Notes: generated by a model not told the origin, from the sequence alone. A stretch of DNA of 35,725 bases from Bacteroidia bacterium (GCA_030427785.1 JAUICR010000006.1:1-35725); one strand, 5' to 3'; shown: positions 15,877-33,013, numbered from the stretch's first letter. Made by a program: numbers and translations.

Positions 15877-15884
15877 TACTTTTG
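15877..15884 (+). promoter_or_regulatory. -7 promoter element TACTTTTG just upstream of the HYC_CC_PP-like gene
   Basis: Exact TAnnTTTG, only 6 bp before ATG 15891. Confidence 0.4.
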
Positions 15885-15890
15885 AGCTGA

Positions 15891-16310
15891 ATGAAAAAAT
15901 TAGCATCATTAATTTTAGCTTTTCAGATTCTCCTGAGTTCCATGTCTTTAAATATTGGTCTTCACTTTTGTGAAGGTCATCTTAAAAGCATTGCACTTTT
16001 TGGTAAGGCCAAACCATGTCATAGCACGCACGCTAATAATGAGCACCCTCCAGGATGTCCTTTTGCTAGTGATAACCAAGAGGACGATTGCTGTAGCGAC
16101 ACGGAGCTTAATCTGGAGAAAATCGATACCGAAGTGGAGCTTTATAAGCAACTCGTATTATCACCTGATTTTGACTTAGAACCGCTACACCCAACTAATA
16201 GTAGTAGTGGCACTAGTATAGAGTTACATCACCAAGTTTCTTTCCGAAATTATAAGCCGCCACTTCCGGCTAAACATGATATCATTTGGCTACAGACTTT
16301 TTTGATTTAG
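15891..16310 (+). CDS. HYC_CC_PP-like Cys/His-rich exported protein (putative metal-related)
   Basis: Signal-like N-terminus; GLHFCEGHLKS, KPCHSTH, CPFASDNQEDDCCSD, PPLP near C-terminus. Confidence 0.75.
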   Translation: MKKLASLILAFQILLSSMSLNIGLHFCEGHLKSIALFGKAKPCHSTHANNEHPPGCPFASDNQEDDCCSDTELNLEKIDTEVELYKQLVLSPDFDLEPLHPTNSSSGTSIELHHQVSFRNYKPPLPAKHDIIWLQTFLI

Positions 16311-16395
16311 ACCCTTGGGTTTAATTTTCAATTATCCTTATTACAGCAATTTGACTAAATGCTGTATCGTCTAACAAATCAAAATCATACATATC

Positions 16396-17358
16396 ATGAA
16401 ATCAAAAATATTACTTATAGCCATGTTGGTATTGGGGTTATCATCTTACGCCCAACAAAATGTTTACTTAAAGATCAATCATAAATTAGGGGCCAACACA
16501 TTTGCGTATAACCAATCTGCCAGCAATAATTTGAATAACCAATTCAACTATACCAGGGTTGAATACTATATTTCTAAAATTGTACTTATACATGATGGTG
16601 GGCAAAGAACTCCTGTAACGGACAGTTATATACTAGTAAAAGCTAATACCAACCTTAATACCCAATTGGGCAATTTCAGTATAAACAGTCTCGAAGCCAT
16701 TGAATTTGGAATTGGAGTAGACACTAGTAACAACCATGCAGACATTACCACTTTCCCCTCAGGTCATGCACTCTCTTTTCAAAACCCATCCATGCATTGG
16801 GGCTGGGCAGCAGGCTACAGGTTTGTGGCCCTTGAAGGCATTACAGGATCCGGGATGAATCAATCGTGGCAACTACACGCCCTTGGTGATAAAAACTACA
16901 ATTTGGCTACTATTAACACTGCTGGTCATTCTAGTGGATCTGACCTAATTATTTCGCTTGACGCAGATTATGAAAAAGCAGTTAAAAACATAACTATAAA
17001 CCCAAACCTTAATTATCACGGTGAGGATCAGCAAGCACCAACGGTACTCGGCAACTTCCAAACTGAAGTATTTACAGCCGGAACAGCAATTATCGGCATG
17101 GAAGAACTTGAGTCTGCACCTATATTTACATTGTTTCCAAATCCAAGCTCGGGTAGAGTAACCCTTACCTTAGAAACTCATATTGCTAAAAACACACAGC
17201 TGCAGGTAGTAAGTACTACAGGTGAAATAATTCAAAATCTACAGCCAATAGCTGGTGACGAAGTAGAATTAATAATGGCTAAACCAGGGCTTTATTTTAT
17301 AAGGCTAAGCAATACAGCACAAGGCCTAATGTATACCCAAAAATTATTGGTGCGATGA
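16396..17358 (+). CDS. MbnP-like protein with T9SS type A C-terminal sorting domain
   Basis: NYTRVEYYISKIVLIHDGG, FPSGHALSFQNPSMHWGWAAGYRFVALEG resemble the MbnP family; C-terminal FTLFPNPSSGRVTLTL...GLYFIRLS...YTQKLLVR is a T9SS CTD. Confidence 0.82.
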   Translation: MKSKILLIAMLVLGLSSYAQQNVYLKINHKLGANTFAYNQSASNNLNNQFNYTRVEYYISKIVLIHDGGQRTPVTDSYILVKANTNLNTQLGNFSINSLEAIEFGIGVDTSNNHADITTFPSGHALSFQNPSMHWGWAAGYRFVALEGITGSGMNQSWQLHALGDKNYNLATINTAGHSSGSDLIISLDADYEKAVKNITINPNLNYHGEDQQAPTVLGNFQTEVFTAGTAIIGMEELESAPIFTLFPNPSSGRVTLTLETHIAKNTQLQVVSTTGEIIQNLQPIAGDEVELIMAKPGLYFIRLSNTAQGLMYTQKLLVR

Positions 17359-18458
17359 AACTGCCAAAATTAGTATTAGCTGTTTTTTGCGTTCTGCTCT
17401 TTGTGGCTTTTGCACAATCCTGCAAAAATGATAAAGACACTAATGAAAACGCTGTGGTATATGATGGCACAGCTTTTCATTTGAATTTTGGAGCTTTTCC
17501 AAAACCTACTATTGCTAGTGACAATCAGCTTACCGTGCAAGGGGTAAAACTTGGACGTATGTTGTTTTACGAAAAACGATTATCAAAAGATGGTTCACAG
17601 TCCTGTGCAACGTGTCATAGGCAAGAGCACGCCTTTTCGGATACAGCAAGATTGTCTATAGGCGTAGAGGGGCTACCGGGCAAGAGGCAGGCTATGGCCG
17701 TTTTCAATATGGCTTGGAATGAAAATGAATTCTTTTGGGATGGACGCTCACACCTTTTAAGAGATCAATCATTAAAACCAATAGAAGACCCGTTGGAAAT
17801 GAATGAAAGTCTGGATAATGTAGTAGCAAAACTGGAAGCCGAAAAATTGTACCGCGACCAATTTATGAGGGCTTTTGGAAGTAGCGAAATCACTGCCGAA
17901 AAAATGTCGCTGGCCATGGAGCAATTTATGAATACGATTGTTTCAGTAGAAAGTAAATACGATCGTTTCTTAAGGGGTGAAGTTGCTTTAAGCCCAAGCG
18001 AGGAGAGAGGTCGTGAACTTTTCTTTGCCGAGTTCAACCCAGGCTTCCCCAATCTATCAGGAGCTGACTGTGCACATTGCCATACGGGCATAATGTTCGA
18101 AAATGATTTGTATATGAATAATGGCTTAGACTCTGATGCAAACATTACCGACATAGGCAGAGAGGAAGTTAGTCAACAGCCTTCTGACAGAGCTAAATTT
18201 AAAGTTGTGTCACTCAGAAACGTGGAGGTAACCGCACCTTATATGCACGATGGTCGATTTAAAACTTTAGAAGAAGTAGTAGCGCATTACAATAGTGGAA
18301 TACAACAAGGAGCTACCACAGATCCCGCTCTGGAGTATACACGTGCTTCTGGGGGATTAAAGTTGAATGCGCAGGATAGAGCTGACCTTGTGGCTTTCTT
18401 AAAAACACTTACAGATGAAGTTCTACTAACGAACCCTGATTTTAGTGATCCATTTTAA
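17355..18458 (+). CDS. di-heme cytochrome c peroxidase/MauG superfamily (MbnH-like) lipoprotein
   Basis: Two CxxCH (CATCH, CAHCH); FFWDGRSHLLRDQSLKPIEDPLEMN; TAPYMHDGRFKTLEEVVAHYN; lipobox-like Cys (QSCKND). Confidence 0.92.
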   Translation: MKLPKLVLAVFCVLLFVAFAQSCKNDKDTNENAVVYDGTAFHLNFGAFPKPTIASDNQLTVQGVKLGRMLFYEKRLSKDGSQSCATCHRQEHAFSDTARLSIGVEGLPGKRQAMAVFNMAWNENEFFWDGRSHLLRDQSLKPIEDPLEMNESLDNVVAKLEAEKLYRDQFMRAFGSSEITAEKMSLAMEQFMNTIVSVESKYDRFLRGEVALSPSEERGRELFFAEFNPGFPNLSGADCAHCHTGIMFENDLYMNNGLDSDANITDIGREEVSQQPSDRAKFKVVSLRNVEVTAPYMHDGRFKTLEEVVAHYNSGIQQGATTDPALEYTRASGGLKLNAQDRADLVAFLKTLTDEVLLTNPDFSDPF

Positions 18459-19502
18459 ATGAAAACTAATAGGTATTTGATAAAAACACAAAAAGTGATA
18501 GCCATAGCGCTGTCACTTTTTGTGTTGGTTCAGTGCCATAAGGATACGCAAACCACCATTCCTAATTATGAATCACTAACCGAAATACCCATAGGTTTTC
18601 CGTCTATGCCTTTTCCCCAAGACAATGAATTTACTTTGGATAGATGGGAAATGGGGAAAAAGTTGTTTTATGACCCCATACTTTCTGTTGACAACACGAT
18701 AAGCTGCGCTAGTTGTCACAAAGCCTCGTTGGCTTTTGCTGATGATAAAGCCTTTAGTCCAGGAGTAAAAAATCGGCCAGGCGTTCGAAATGCTCCTTCC
18801 TTAGCCAATGTTGGTTACCATCCCTATTACTTAAAAGAAGGAAGTGTGCCTAGCCTAGAGATGCAAGTATTGGTGCCGGTGCAAGAAGAAAATGAATTTG
18901 CACACGATATGCTTGTCATTACCGAGATTCTGAAATCCAACTCATACTATGCAAGCATGGCCCTCAAAAGCTATAATCGTGAAATCGACCCGTATGTCAT
19001 AGTTAGGGCTATTTCTACTTTTCAAAGGACGCTAGTAAGTGGCAATAGCCCTTATGACCAGTACTTTTATCAAGGCAAATCAACTGCATTATCAGAAAGT
19101 GCACGAAGAGGCTTAGACCTTTTTAATAGTAGTAAAACCAATTGCAGCAGTTGTCATGGTGGTTTCAACTTTTCGGATTATAGTTTTCAAAATAATGGAC
19201 TTGCCACGGTATATAATGACATAGGCAGAAAACGCTTAACTGGAAAAGCTGAAGATGAATCTCTTTTTAAGGTGCCATCGCTTCGCAATGTAGAACTCAC
19301 CGCCCCTTACATGCACAATGGCCGGTTTGGCACCCTACTACAAGTGGTGGAGCATTATAATAGTGGCGGAAAAAATCACTTTAATAAAAGCAAACTCATT
19401 AAACCACTTAATCTAAGTACACAGGAAAAACAAGATTTAGTGGCCTTCTTAAAGTCTCTCACAGATGATGACTTTGTAAACAATCCCTTGTTTAGACCAT
19501 AG
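18459..19502 (+). CDS. second di-heme cytochrome c peroxidase/MauG-superfamily (MbnH-like) lipoprotein
   Basis: Two CxxCH (CASCH, CSSCH); TAPYMHNGRFGTLLQVVEHYN; lipobox FVLVQC; FWDGR-type motif replaced by YYLKEGS. Confidence 0.9.
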   Translation: MKTNRYLIKTQKVIAIALSLFVLVQCHKDTQTTIPNYESLTEIPIGFPSMPFPQDNEFTLDRWEMGKKLFYDPILSVDNTISCASCHKASLAFADDKAFSPGVKNRPGVRNAPSLANVGYHPYYLKEGSVPSLEMQVLVPVQEENEFAHDMLVITEILKSNSYYASMALKSYNREIDPYVIVRAISTFQRTLVSGNSPYDQYFYQGKSTALSESARRGLDLFNSSKTNCSSCHGGFNFSDYSFQNNGLATVYNDIGRKRLTGKAEDESLFKVPSLRNVELTAPYMHNGRFGTLLQVVEHYNSGGKNHFNKSKLIKPLNLSTQEKQDLVAFLKSLTDDDFVNNPLFRP

Positions 19503-19549: not shown

Positions 19550-19550
19550 G

Positions 19551-19622
19551 TTGCCCCACAAGGACTCGAACCTCGACTGACGGTACCAAAAACCGCTGTC
19601 CTGCCAATTAGACGATAGGGCA
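19551..19622 (-). tRNA. tRNA-Gln (anticodon TTG)
   Basis: Minus strand TGCCCTATCGTCTAATTGGCAGGACAGCGGTTTTTGGTACCGTCAGTCGAGGTTCGAGTCCTTGTGGGGCAA: acceptor TGCCCTA/TGGGGCA pairs (one wobble), 7-nt loop TTTTGGT with TTG anticodon, GTTCGAGTC T-loop. Confidence 0.93.
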
Positions 19623-25138: not shown

Positions 25139-25984
25139 ATGAAAGGACCGAAATTCTTAAGATATGTAATTCCTGTTCACCTAGCTTTAAAAGAAAATGG
25201 AGGTGCTGCAAATTCAGGCGATATTATTGACGAAGTAATTGAGAGTTTAAAAATTTCCGAAAAAGAACTTGCTGAAACTACTTCAAATGGTCAATCAAGG
25301 GTTAAAAATCAAATTAACTGGGCTCGTTTTTATATGTATAAAGCTGGTCTAATTGATAACACGGAAAGAGGAATATGGAGATTGACATCTGAGGGCTTAG
25401 AAGTCGTTTTAACGGAAAAGGGGGTTTACGACATTTTTAAGAAGGCTCAGAATAAGGTAAAAAAGGATAAAGAGAAGAATACTCGTGGAAAAGTACTATT
25501 TGATGAAGATGATTCTATTGAAGAAGAGCAACATTCTGGTGAGTTACTAGAGATAATAAAAAGCCTTACTCCTAAAGGGTTCGAAAGAATTTGCAAAAGG
25601 CTTCTAACAGAAATAGGAATACATGACATCATTATAACTGGTAATCCAAGTGATCAAGGAATTGACGGAACAGGATTGGTGAAATTAAATGATGTCGTTA
25701 GCCTCAATATTGTTTTTCAATGCAAGCGGTATAGGGATGTTGTTTCCCCTCATCATGTTAGAGATTTTCGCGGGGCTATGCAAGGTCGTGGAGAAAAAGG
25801 GCTTGTAATCTCGACTGGGAGATTCACCAAAGAAGCAAAACAAGAAGCCAATAGAGAGGGTGTCACACCAATAGAGTTAATTGATGGTGACAGGCTTGTT
25901 GAATTATTTGAAAAATATCAATTAGGCTTAAAGCCAGTAACTGTCTTTGAAATCAATCATGATTTCTTTAAAAACTTTAACTAG
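25139..25984 (+). CDS. mrr: Mrr-like type IV restriction endonuclease (winged-helix N-terminus + Mrr_cat)
   Basis: RVKNQINWARFYMYKAGLIDNTERGIWRLTSEG N-terminal region; LTPKGFERICKRLLTEIGI...GIDGTG...FQCKRYRDVVSPHHVRDFRGAMQGRGEKGLVISTGRFTKEAK catalytic region. Confidence 0.92.
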   Translation: MKGPKFLRYVIPVHLALKENGGAANSGDIIDEVIESLKISEKELAETTSNGQSRVKNQINWARFYMYKAGLIDNTERGIWRLTSEGLEVVLTEKGVYDIFKKAQNKVKKDKEKNTRGKVLFDEDDSIEEEQHSGELLEIIKSLTPKGFERICKRLLTEIGIHDIIITGNPSDQGIDGTGLVKLNDVVSLNIVFQCKRYRDVVSPHHVRDFRGAMQGRGEKGLVISTGRFTKEAKQEANREGVTPIELIDGDRLVELFEKYQLGLKPVTVFEINHDFFKNFN

Positions 25985-30046: not shown

Positions 30047-33013
30047 CTATTCTTTAATTAGTGATTTGGTAATACTAAAATCACCGTCACTTATTTTTAC
30101 CAGATACATACCGCTTGGGTATGCAGATAAATCAATGCGAGCGCCTTCCTGCTCACTACCTGAACTTAGTACACTTTGAATTAATACACGTCCAGCTAGG
30201 TCAGTTACGCTAACCTCAGCATTTGCGCTAAGTACTTTACCACTGGTCGAAATCTGTACAATTCCATTTGTAGGATTTGGGAACAGGTTGAGATCAAACT
30301 CTCCACTAGTACTAGCTACATTGCCAGCAGGTGAAGATTTAACCGTAGGAACTACACCCATGTGCCCAAGATCCATTCTAAAGCTAAATCCACCTTTATC
30401 TCGCTTCGAAGTCCTGTTTCGGATGGCCACCACTACTTCATTTGCACCTGATTGGAGAATATTATCCATTGATATATTCGTGTAGCTGTCAAACATATCT
30501 CCGCCATTAAAGCCATTATTCACTTGTCCATTGTCTGTAAAGAGAATATCATGATTCATGGTGCGGTAGTTCACCTTACCCATATCCTCTTCAAGCGCAA
30601 CACTGTGCCCGTTAATGAATATTTGCATATTATCATCCACAAACATTCTAAAGCGTGCGCTAAGGCCGATATTATTGGAAAGGTTAAATGTTTGACGATA
30701 GTAAGTCACTCCACTTGCTGATTTTATAACATCAGAACCCGGTACCGCGTATACGTGATTCCATGGGTAGGGCTGACCTACAATTGCAGGCAAAGTAAAT
30801 GTAGAAGCCGCAGGTACGCTTGCAACTCCAGGCCAAGGATACATATTTGAAGTAGCTGTAGTTACGGTGGTACTTAATTTCCAGTCTGAATCTGAAACAA
30901 GGCTCAGAACATTAGGATCTGGTGTACAGGTAACGGTGAGTCCAAAAACTCCAACCCCATTTCCATAGCCACTTACTAGTACGTAATAAGTATCTCCGGG
31001 CACGGTAGGAACCCCTAACCCGCTTAAGAACCCAAAATACCCACAACCCGCATCATCATTGTCTCCAATAATATCTAAAGATCCGCAGTTACCGCTAAAT
31101 ACTGATAGTCTAGTGTCATAGCTAAGGCCGGTTTCATAGTCGCAAGTATGTATAATGCTATAGGCATCGCTTGCTACAAACTTGTACCATACCCCCGGAG
31201 CTGTTATAGGATAAAACACAGAGTCAGGAGAATCTACAGTGGCATCGATGGTAGTCCCAATCATCATAGACCCACAAGAGAATGGAGTTGCATTTACACA
31301 TAAGTCATTAGCGGGTGGCGGACCTGGTGGAAGTGGAGCAGGAGTAACTCCTGGGTACACACCCACGGCTTTCCAAGCTGAATCTACAATATTAGCTGTG
31401 GCAGTGTCATACAAATCCAAAGCTGCTTGAATAGATCCGGCTCTGGCATCCTCAAAATTTGAGGTAGAACTTAAATACACCGTTAAATTACGGTAAGCAA
31501 TGGCAGCCGCTTTTGTTCTTCCTATAGCAGGTACATTGTACGAATAACTATTGTCATTAGTACCCGCCTCACCTTCTGATAGGATATAAAACCACTTGTT
31601 CTGCACTCCTGAATTATAGTGTACTCCACAAAAGTCATTATATGGTGTTGGATTACATCCTACATTATCCCACCAATAATCACCAAGGTAGGTGTCTGGC
31701 TGACCATATAGATTAGGGTTATTCATAGAGCGAATAGCACCACTACCTCCAATGCCTATATCAGTTCCCATCTGCCAGTCATTAGAGCCTGTGGCATGAT
31801 TCTCTACCATTTCTCCAAAAATATCTGAGAAGGACTCATTTAATGCCCCCGACTCCATTTCGTAAAACAGGTTAGCCGAAAACTGAGTAACACCGTGGGC
31901 AATTTCGTGGCCACAAATATCTAATGCCACCAATGGCCCATAGCCAATACCGTCACCATCACCGTAAGTCATGGCAAATCCATTCCAAAAGGCATTAACA
32001 TAACCAACGCCAGCATGCACATAGGAATAAATAGGAGAACCTAAATCATCATAAGAATCTCTACCATGGGCAGTTTTGAAATAATCATAGGTTTGCTCAG
32101 CTCCCCAGTGTGCTTGCACTCCAGCCCCGTCTGTCCAACCAGTATCTGTAGTGCTGGTAATATCTGTGGCTGCACCATAATTATAGGTATTATTCAATGT
32201 ATAGGTTTCGAAGATTGCACCTAAAGTAGACGCGTCCTCACGAAGTCTAAAGCTATTAGGACCTACCATATCGGCAGTAAAGCTTACTTTACCATTGTAC
32301 AAGCTGTTTCCTGAAGCAGGAACATTTGCCTCATGAATGAGCTCATGCTCGTATACAATCTCACCTTTTGCCGCATCTACATATATGTCTGCCCTACTAA
32401 TTGGGTCGTAGGCAAACACATCATACTTATATACTAAGAAGTTCTTTTTGGAAACCGGATGGTGTAAAACCACCAACTTGCCAGTAGGCGCAAAGGTGTT
32501 TTTATCATTACTCCAAGCATAAACTTTTGCATTTACCTTATCCAATGCCGTTTGCAATCCTTGTGCGGCAGAAATTCGAGGACTAGTATCCAGATTACGG
32601 ACTTTTACAAAATTGCTTGTCACATTCTTTATCATCCCTTCTTTTACATGCAGGGTCACCGTTCGTCCCTCTACATTCAAGCCATTGTATACTTGTTGAT
32701 ATCGATAGTGTGTAAAGCCAAGATTATCTGTTGTGGTTTTAAGCAGTACAAGATTATCCTCTTCTTGCAGACTAAAAATAGTTTTTAAATAGTCTCGTAC
32801 TTCCGTAAAAGGCACGTCACCAGCATAATTCTTTAACTGAGTTTTGGAAGTTTGAGGGTTAAGACTAGTTTGGAGTCCACTAGTACTAGGGTTGTAAATA
32901 GCAGTACTTGTAGGTGAGCCATTTCCTTGTGCAGAAATGGAGTTTGGAATTAGGGAGACACTTATAGCTAAAGCTCCAATTCCGATTATTTTAAAAATAT
33001 TATTGGTTTTCAT
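30047..33013 (-). CDS. secreted M4 (thermolysin-like) metallopeptidase with C-terminal T9SS sorting domain
   Basis: Signal peptide; FTP/propeptide region; HEIAHGVTQF and GALNESFSDIFGE zinc motifs; C-terminal FDLNLFPNPTNGIVQIS...GMYLVKISDGDFSITKSLIKE. Confidence 0.95.
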   Translation of the reverse strand: MKTNNIFKIIGIGALAISVSLIPNSISAQGNGSPTSTAIYNPSTSGLQTSLNPQTSKTQLKNYAGDVPFTEVRDYLKTIFSLQEEDNLVLLKTTTDNLGFTHYRYQQVYNGLNVEGRTVTLHVKEGMIKNVTSNFVKVRNLDTSPRISAAQGLQTALDKVNAKVYAWSNDKNTFAPTGKLVVLHHPVSKKNFLVYKYDVFAYDPISRADIYVDAAKGEIVYEHELIHEANVPASGNSLYNGKVSFTADMVGPNSFRLREDASTLGAIFETYTLNNTYNYGAATDITSTTDTGWTDGAGVQAHWGAEQTYDYFKTAHGRDSYDDLGSPIYSYVHAGVGYVNAFWNGFAMTYGDGDGIGYGPLVALDICGHEIAHGVTQFSANLFYEMESGALNESFSDIFGEMVENHATGSNDWQMGTDIGIGGSGAIRSMNNPNLYGQPDTYLGDYWWDNVGCNPTPYNDFCGVHYNSGVQNKWFYILSEGEAGTNDNSYSYNVPAIGRTKAAAIAYRNLTVYLSSTSNFEDARAGSIQAALDLYDTATANIVDSAWKAVGVYPGVTPAPLPPGPPPANDLCVNATPFSCGSMMIGTTIDATVDSPDSVFYPITAPGVWYKFVASDAYSIIHTCDYETGLSYDTRLSVFSGNCGSLDIIGDNDDAGCGYFGFLSGLGVPTVPGDTYYVLVSGYGNGVGVFGLTVTCTPDPNVLSLVSDSDWKLSTTVTTATSNMYPWPGVASVPAASTFTLPAIVGQPYPWNHVYAVPGSDVIKSASGVTYYRQTFNLSNNIGLSARFRMFVDDNMQIFINGHSVALEEDMGKVNYRTMNHDILFTDNGQVNNGFNGGDMFDSYTNISMDNILQSGANEVVVAIRNRTSKRDKGGFSFRMDLGHMGVVPTVKSSPAGNVASTSGEFDLNLFPNPTNGIVQISTSGKVLSANAEVSVTDLAGRVLIQSVLSSGSEQEGARIDLSAYPSGMYLVKISDGDFSITKSLIKE

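Follow-up and report, generated by a model that had tools for sequence, protein, structure and literature searches.

A 35,725-nt stretch of DNA from a Bacteroidia bacterium (GCA_030427785.1 JAUICR010000006.1; hereafter the window) carries, at 15891-19502, a four-gene cassette that probably encodes a surface copper protein with a tryptophan-derived metal site, matured by a MauG-type di-heme enzyme and exported by the type IX secretion system (T9SS); this explanation draws on sequence comparison, modelled structure and analogy with characterised systems. The genes specify, in order, a HYC_CC_PP family protein, an MbnP-type protein with a C-terminal T9SS sorting domain (CTD), and two di-heme proteins of the MbnH/MauG type, here called DH1 and DH2 (Table 1). 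The source genome is a draft assembly in 364 contigs (completeness 92%, contamination 3.3%). An earlier reading made without database searches (the sequence-only reading) had proposed four co-directional genes, an ATGA overlap between the MbnP-type stop and the DH1 start at 17355-17358, and a DH2 start codon directly after the DH1 stop. All of these are present in the sequence, the last as a TAA/ATG junction at 18456-18461, and profile searches with the four proteins recovered the families PF20243, PF03150, NF047658 and PF18962/TIGR04183.

An MbnP-type protein with a T9SS sorting domain

Sequence and predicted fold both place the gene 2 product in the MbnP superfamily. PF20243 (MbnP) matched residues 21-203 with an E-value of 1.3e-30 and 107 bits against a cut-off of 27, so that the MbnP-like label did not fail at the profile search; the score against TIGR04052, the MbnP equivalog, was 37.7 bits, under the curated cut-off of 140. 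Sequence searches against the PDB were weak, with no significant match by plain phmmer and an E-value of 0.029 for 7L6G, the Methylosinus trichosporium MbnP, in a profile search; a single-sequence scan of genome contigs yielded just 3 relatives. For the relationship to 7L6G, the fold search alone was decisive. The AlphaFold2 model, built with an alignment of 22 relatives, was confident (predicted local distance difference test score, pLDDT, 88.5), and the first six Foldseek hits in the PDB were the six chains of 7L6G (E 4e-8 to 4e-7, probability 1.00, template modelling (TM) score about 0.40-0.45 over the entire two-domain query), at 13% identity in the Foldseek alignment. Because its proteins score under the TIGR04052 and TIGR04039 (MbnH) cut-offs, the cassette is a divergent MbnP/MbnH-type branch distinct from the curated equivalogs; the proposed relationship to MbnP/MbnH thus stands, whereas membership of the curated families does not.

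The residues expected of a copper site are among the most conserved in the protein. In a profile alignment, M133-H-W135-G-W137 fell on M-A-W-N-W of 7L6G and H161 fell on a 7L6G His; we take the aligned Met, Trp and His of 7L6G to be its copper-site residues. MbnH is said to oxidise the first Trp of the WxW motif of M. trichosporium MbnP to kynurenine, and the Cu(I) site reportedly uses a His and a Met. Among 84 full-length CTD-type sequences, M133, W135, W137, G140, Y141 and H208 were each present in 84 and H161 in 80. Lipoprotein-type MbnPs, of which 27 were compared, kept W135 in 26 (one gap) and H161 in all 27. The Met, Trp and His signature anticipated by the sequence-only reading is therefore conserved, and conversion of W135 to kynurenine, giving a Cu(I) site with M133 and H161, is a probable part of the overall explanation.

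Residues 246-319 of the gene 2 product matched PF18962 (E 3e-7) and TIGR04183 (E 9.5e-9, 35 bits against a cut-off of 23), both above cut-off, the modelled tail resembled the CTDs of T9SS substrates (8GLK, 8QB1 and 8GL6 in the Foldseek search of the PDB), and a TIGR04183 tail was present in 21 of the 22 aligned relatives. The type A sorting domain that had been read at the end of this protein is thus borne out. The genome encodes about 150 T9SS tails and the SprA translocon, split over two contigs, so T9SS export of the MbnP-type protein is predicted from both tag and machinery, and surface delivery would follow. Gln20, directly after the signal peptide, occurs in 60 of the 84 full-length sequences and is invariant in the 22-row alignment; it fits the Bacteroidetes Q-rule for signal peptidase I (SPI) substrates (PMC5837995), which suggests an SPI substrate, in contrast to the lipoprotein MbnPs.

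Two unequal di-heme enzymes

Both downstream proteins belong to PF03150 (E 2e-54 for DH1 and 9e-44 for DH2), and for both the best NCBIfam model was TIGR04039 (239 and 274 bits, not reaching the cut-off of 363) and the best PDB match by sequence was MbnH, 6E1C. The DH2 model (pLDDT 84.7) likewise had 6E1C as its top Foldseek hit (E 4e-19, TM 0.76), with peroxidases and MauG ranking lower. As had been noted from the sequence, both begin with lipoprotein-type signals, ending at a lipobox-like Cys (AFAQSC and LVQC). Each retains two CxxCH motifs, a Gln/Pro/Glu distal pocket and a Tyr, the predicted axial ligand of the second heme, at the place of MauG Tyr294 (from the alignment range of 3L4M), present in 63 of 64 DH1 sequences (one gap) and in all 75 DH2 sequences; these residues are presumably the counterparts of the axial Tyr and distal Gln/Pro/Glu of MauG. 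A cytochrome c assembly gene is present in the genome.

What distinguishes the two is the position between the hemes. DH1 has a Trp there (Trp128 in FWDG, which phmmer aligned with a Trp of 6E1C), whereas 74 of 75 DH2 sequences lack it (Arg 64, Lys 2, Trp 1). DH1 formed a single clade (39 rows, Shimodaira-Hasegawa-like approximate likelihood ratio test value 99), and the Trp state changed only 5 times on a tree that itself includes the Trp column. The proposal of two tandem di-heme proteins therefore holds as to their type and needs correcting as to their equivalence: by sequence, DH1 and DH2 appear consistently unequal, one with and one without the inter-heme Trp, and represent two old lineages rather than interchangeable copies, a pairing that is new here. 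DH2 as a dead copy was rejected, since all 75 sequences retain the two heme motifs, the axial Tyr and the distal pocket (one Gln exception). An assignment of one enzyme to each Trp of WxW was not supported either, as single-enzyme loci retain both Trps.

Conservation of the cassette and its copper setting

The arrangement would not be expected by chance, because the same genes cluster in many other genomes. A full-length copy of the MbnP-type protein was found in about 40 of 88 genomes of the window's family, and a copy spanning both domains in roughly 45 of 395 genomes of a class-wide sample. We surveyed 87 MbnP genes from 84 loci in many Bacteroidia families; the loci were picked for their resemblance to the window protein and include many close relatives, so that the counts are not independent. 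DH1 and DH2 lay immediately downstream of 57 of the 87 (39 arranged as in the window and 18 in the opposite order); the remaining genes had DH2 only (15), DH1 only (5) or neither (3), or were cut by contig ends (7), and one locus counted as DH2-only downstream (L142) carries DH1 upstream. Intergenic distances were mostly -38 to +13 bases. The neighbourhood thus behaves as a conserved unit, and the cassette appears to be old and under selection.

A strict requirement for DH1 beside the MbnP gene was rejected on account of the 15 loci with DH2 only. A Trp-bearing di-heme homologue was found in 15 of 16 genomes searched, nearly all of them with a DH2-only locus, and nearly always lay elsewhere in the genome; in the sixteenth (G110) none was resolved. 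This is weak evidence for action in trans, because Trp-bearing homologues are common.

Several genomes show variations on the theme. In one genus, five loci (L060, L066, L075, L078 and L079) point to repeated loss of DH1 from between MbnP and DH2, with a DH1 remnant in L078. One genome (G025) holds two T9SS-tailed MbnP loci, L050 and L051, one with only a Trp-bearing enzyme and the other with only a Trp-less one. Another (G088) has five T9SS-tailed MbnP copies, three of them at L124 (6591-13131), in a cluster that also contains one DH1, two metal P-type ATPases and a further protein with a T9SS tail. The source genome itself has a second MbnP paralogue on contig C132 (L002, 1411-3192), a lipoprotein in which YWPTS replaces WxW. 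The adjoining di-heme gene retains the Trp, the axial Tyr and the two heme motifs but aligns without the distal Gln/Pro/Glu. The same genome also has a lipoprotein MbnP with YWDM at the place of WxW and a Trp-bearing di-heme gene, each on its own and not seen side by side (C244, L003, and C93, L005).

Copper genes recur around these loci. Gene 1, as had been proposed, is an exported, Cys/His-rich protein of HYC_CC_PP type, with a signal peptide and an NF047658 match of E 4e-18 (66 bits, cut-off 28), and a HYC gene lies within 300 bases upstream in 27 of the surveyed cases. Two other HYC genes in the same genome, read by eye, adjoin a CusA/CzcA-type pump in one case and an HMA protein with a TonB receptor in the other. 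Four loci (L111, L117, L124 and L135) have a copper-type P1B ATPase gene near the cassette on the same strand, L042 has a CusA-type pump gene and L041 encodes a CusC-like protein; all were identified by eye or motif rather than by profile. In a genome of the window's genus (G026) the cassette continues with another HYC gene and the gene for a CusA-type pump. The proposed copper-handling setting is thus supported by copper genes beside some cassette copies and beside HYC paralogues, and by sequence context HYC_CC_PP appears to be a companion of copper loci; a search of the available papers on HYC_CC_PP or 'MbnP family' found nothing. In L062-L070, genes for a Fur-type regulator and a TonB-receptor-like protein are repeatedly found two genes upstream of the cassette, which suggests metal control of the region.

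The immediate surroundings are ordinary. A leucyl-tRNA synthetase-like open reading frame (read by eye) lies to the left and a tRNA gene bounds the cassette on the right, and farther neighbours include NifU, PGI, a GTP-binding protein, RecJ, an M23 peptidase, DsbA and a Mrr endonuclease, among others. The Mrr gene, for a type IV restriction endonuclease, occupies 25139-25984, and a large protein at 30047-33013 on the minus strand carries a strong T9SS sorting tail of its own (E 1.5e-14). The sequence-only reading had noticed no methanobactin genes; none occurs among the Pfam matches of 24 window proteins, although no search aimed at mbnA, mbnB or mbnC was made. Just 5' of gene 1, TACTTTTG fits the Bacteroidota -7 element TAnnTTTG and is a weak candidate; the entire plus strand of the window holds 16 matches of this type. 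Inspection upstream of gene 1 found no good -33 element beside it, and scans for sigma-70 promoters and terminators gave results at chance level.

Table 1. Positions of cassette genes, predicted functional residues and flanking features in the window
Feature	Position	Strand	Basis or remark
TACTTTTG, -7-like match 5' of gene 1	15877..15884	+	fits TAnnTTTG; weak candidate
Gene 1, HYC_CC_PP family protein, 139 aa, signal peptide, Cys/His-rich	15891..16310	+	NF047658
Gene 2, MbnP-type protein with T9SS tail, 320 aa	16396..17358 (stop included)	+	PF20243; predicted fold matches 7L6G
Sec/SPI signal peptide, mature N-terminus Gln20	16396..16452	+	Q-rule
MbnP domain, residues 21-203	16456..17004	+	PF20243
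M133-H134-W135-G136-W137	16792..16806	+	W135, predicted Kyn-forming Trp; M133, predicted Cu(I) ligand
His161	16876..16878	+	predicted Cu(I) ligand
His208	17017..17019	+	invariant, 84/84
T9SS type A C-terminal sorting domain, residues 246-319	17131..17352	+	TIGR04183
DH1, MbnH/MauG-type di-heme lipoprotein with inter-heme Trp	17355..18458	+	
DH1 Trp128 (FWDG), inter-heme Trp	17736..17738	+	64/64 DH1 sequences
DH1 Tyr312	18288..18290	+	predicted axial heme ligand, MauG Tyr294 position
DH2, MbnH/MauG-type di-heme lipoprotein without inter-heme Trp	18459..19502	+	
DH2 Lys126, at inter-heme Trp position	18834..18836	+	mostly Arg in relatives
DH2 Tyr300	19356..19358	+	predicted axial heme ligand; Tyr 75/75
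tRNA-Gln(TTG), cassette boundary	19550..19622	-	

Proposed maturation and its alternatives

To our knowledge, characterised MauG-type maturases act alone. In the pathway that we favour, the MbnP-type protein would enter the periplasm via Sec and fold there, lipid-anchored DH1 would use hydrogen peroxide to oxidise W135, the first Trp of WGW, to kynurenine, and the kynurenine would complete a Cu(I) site with M133 and H161. The folded, modified protein would then leave by T9SS via its CTD and capture or hold copper on the surface or in the medium. T9SS substrates enter the periplasm via Sec (PMC5837995), and modification before export is the simplest order because such cargo passes through this compartment. 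DH2 lacks the Trp between the hemes and so most likely acts as a helper, or in some other capacity, in this maturation, such as the supply or removal of electrons or peroxide. A more specific version, in which the Trp-bearing and the Trp-less (mostly Arg) enzymes form a two-enzyme unit that splits Trp-to-kynurenine oxidation or electron traffic on one substrate before T9SS export, is possible and offered tentatively.

The closest precedents differ in instructive ways. MbnP/MbnH of M. trichosporium OB3b (7L6G and 6E1C; TIGR04052 and TIGR04039) share the copper-protein fold, the aligned M-x-W-x-W and His, and an adjacent MauG-type enzyme that, like DH1, has an axial Tyr and an inter-heme Trp; the present cassette adds a T9SS tail, a second and unequal di-heme gene and a HYC_CC_PP companion. 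MopE/SACCP of Methylococcus capsulatus Bath and CorA/CorB of Methylomicrobium album BG8 likewise combine a surface or secreted Cu(I) protein, with a kynurenine at its site, and a co-transcribed di-heme partner, and these systems are copper-repressed (PMC3912023, PMC3423442). When copper is limiting, M. capsulatus secretes MopE, which binds Cu(I) through Kyn130 and two His (PMC3423442), and CorA is similar to MopE (PMC3912023). Surface location alone, which the sequence-only reading had put forward, is accordingly no new feature; relative to MopE and CorA, with their two His and kynurenine ligands, no T9SS and one di-heme gene, the new variant is the combination of an MbnP-type site, a T9SS tail and two unequal enzymes. 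Lipoprotein MbnP loci of Bacteroidia (such as L151-L170 and that on C132) also combine an MbnP domain with one or two neighbouring di-heme genes, but their copper protein is a lipoprotein without CTD and usually has one enzyme, with or without the Trp. MauG of Paracoccus denitrificans shares the di-heme fold, axial Tyr and distal Gln/Pro/Glu; it acts on methylamine dehydrogenase and is about 24% identical to DH2 in the Foldseek alignment.

Some observations weigh against the favoured pathway: a recognisable copper gene directly adjoins the cassette in a minority of loci only, the MbnP-type protein and both enzymes all fall under the curated cut-offs, and some MbnP-CTD loci have only the Trp-less enzyme (15) or no nearby di-heme gene (3). 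The order of steps might also differ. Lipoproteins are often surface-displayed in Bacteroidota, and DH1 and DH2, in which the Cys is often followed by a K-D or K-E stretch, could be flipped to the surface and modify the MbnP-type protein after export as a surface maturation complex. The di-heme partner SACCP does occur on the M. capsulatus surface together with MopE, but the CorA partner CorB is found mainly in the periplasm (PMC3912023), and DH1 and DH2 show no clear lipoprotein export signal, the mean acidic count at +2 to +6 (1.2-1.3) not being distinctive; we regard this topology as unlikely.

The chemistry could differ instead. Both enzymes are members of the cytochrome c peroxidase/MauG superfamily, their resemblance to true peroxidases is nearly as close as that to MbnH, and DH2 lacks the inter-heme Trp, as might be expected if they were cytochrome c peroxidases in a surface peroxide or electron-transfer system with the MbnP-type protein as an unmodified redox or copper partner. 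Such a system is improbable given that practically all DH1 and DH2 sequences have the predicted axial Tyr of the MauG/MbnH state, that MbnH is their closest relative and that the counterpart of the modified Trp of MbnP is invariant. The low identity to solved MbnP would even allow a surface protein of different function (another metal, or adhesion) that has kept the MbnP fold and is modified at a residue other than W135. This seems very improbable, since the site Met, Trp and His are among the most conserved residues and copper neighbours recur.

Kynurenine-copper sites have so far come from a few methanotrophs, and the cassette represents a predicted version, widespread in Bacteroidia, that carries a surface-export tag. 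If the favoured pathway is correct, many ordinary bacteria would use a site assembled after translation to deal with copper extracellularly, and T9SS cargo could include proteins whose metal site is made by an enzyme. In the conserved pair, one enzyme has the inter-heme Trp and the other lacks it, which amounts to a natural experiment on the role of this residue in MauG-type chemistry.

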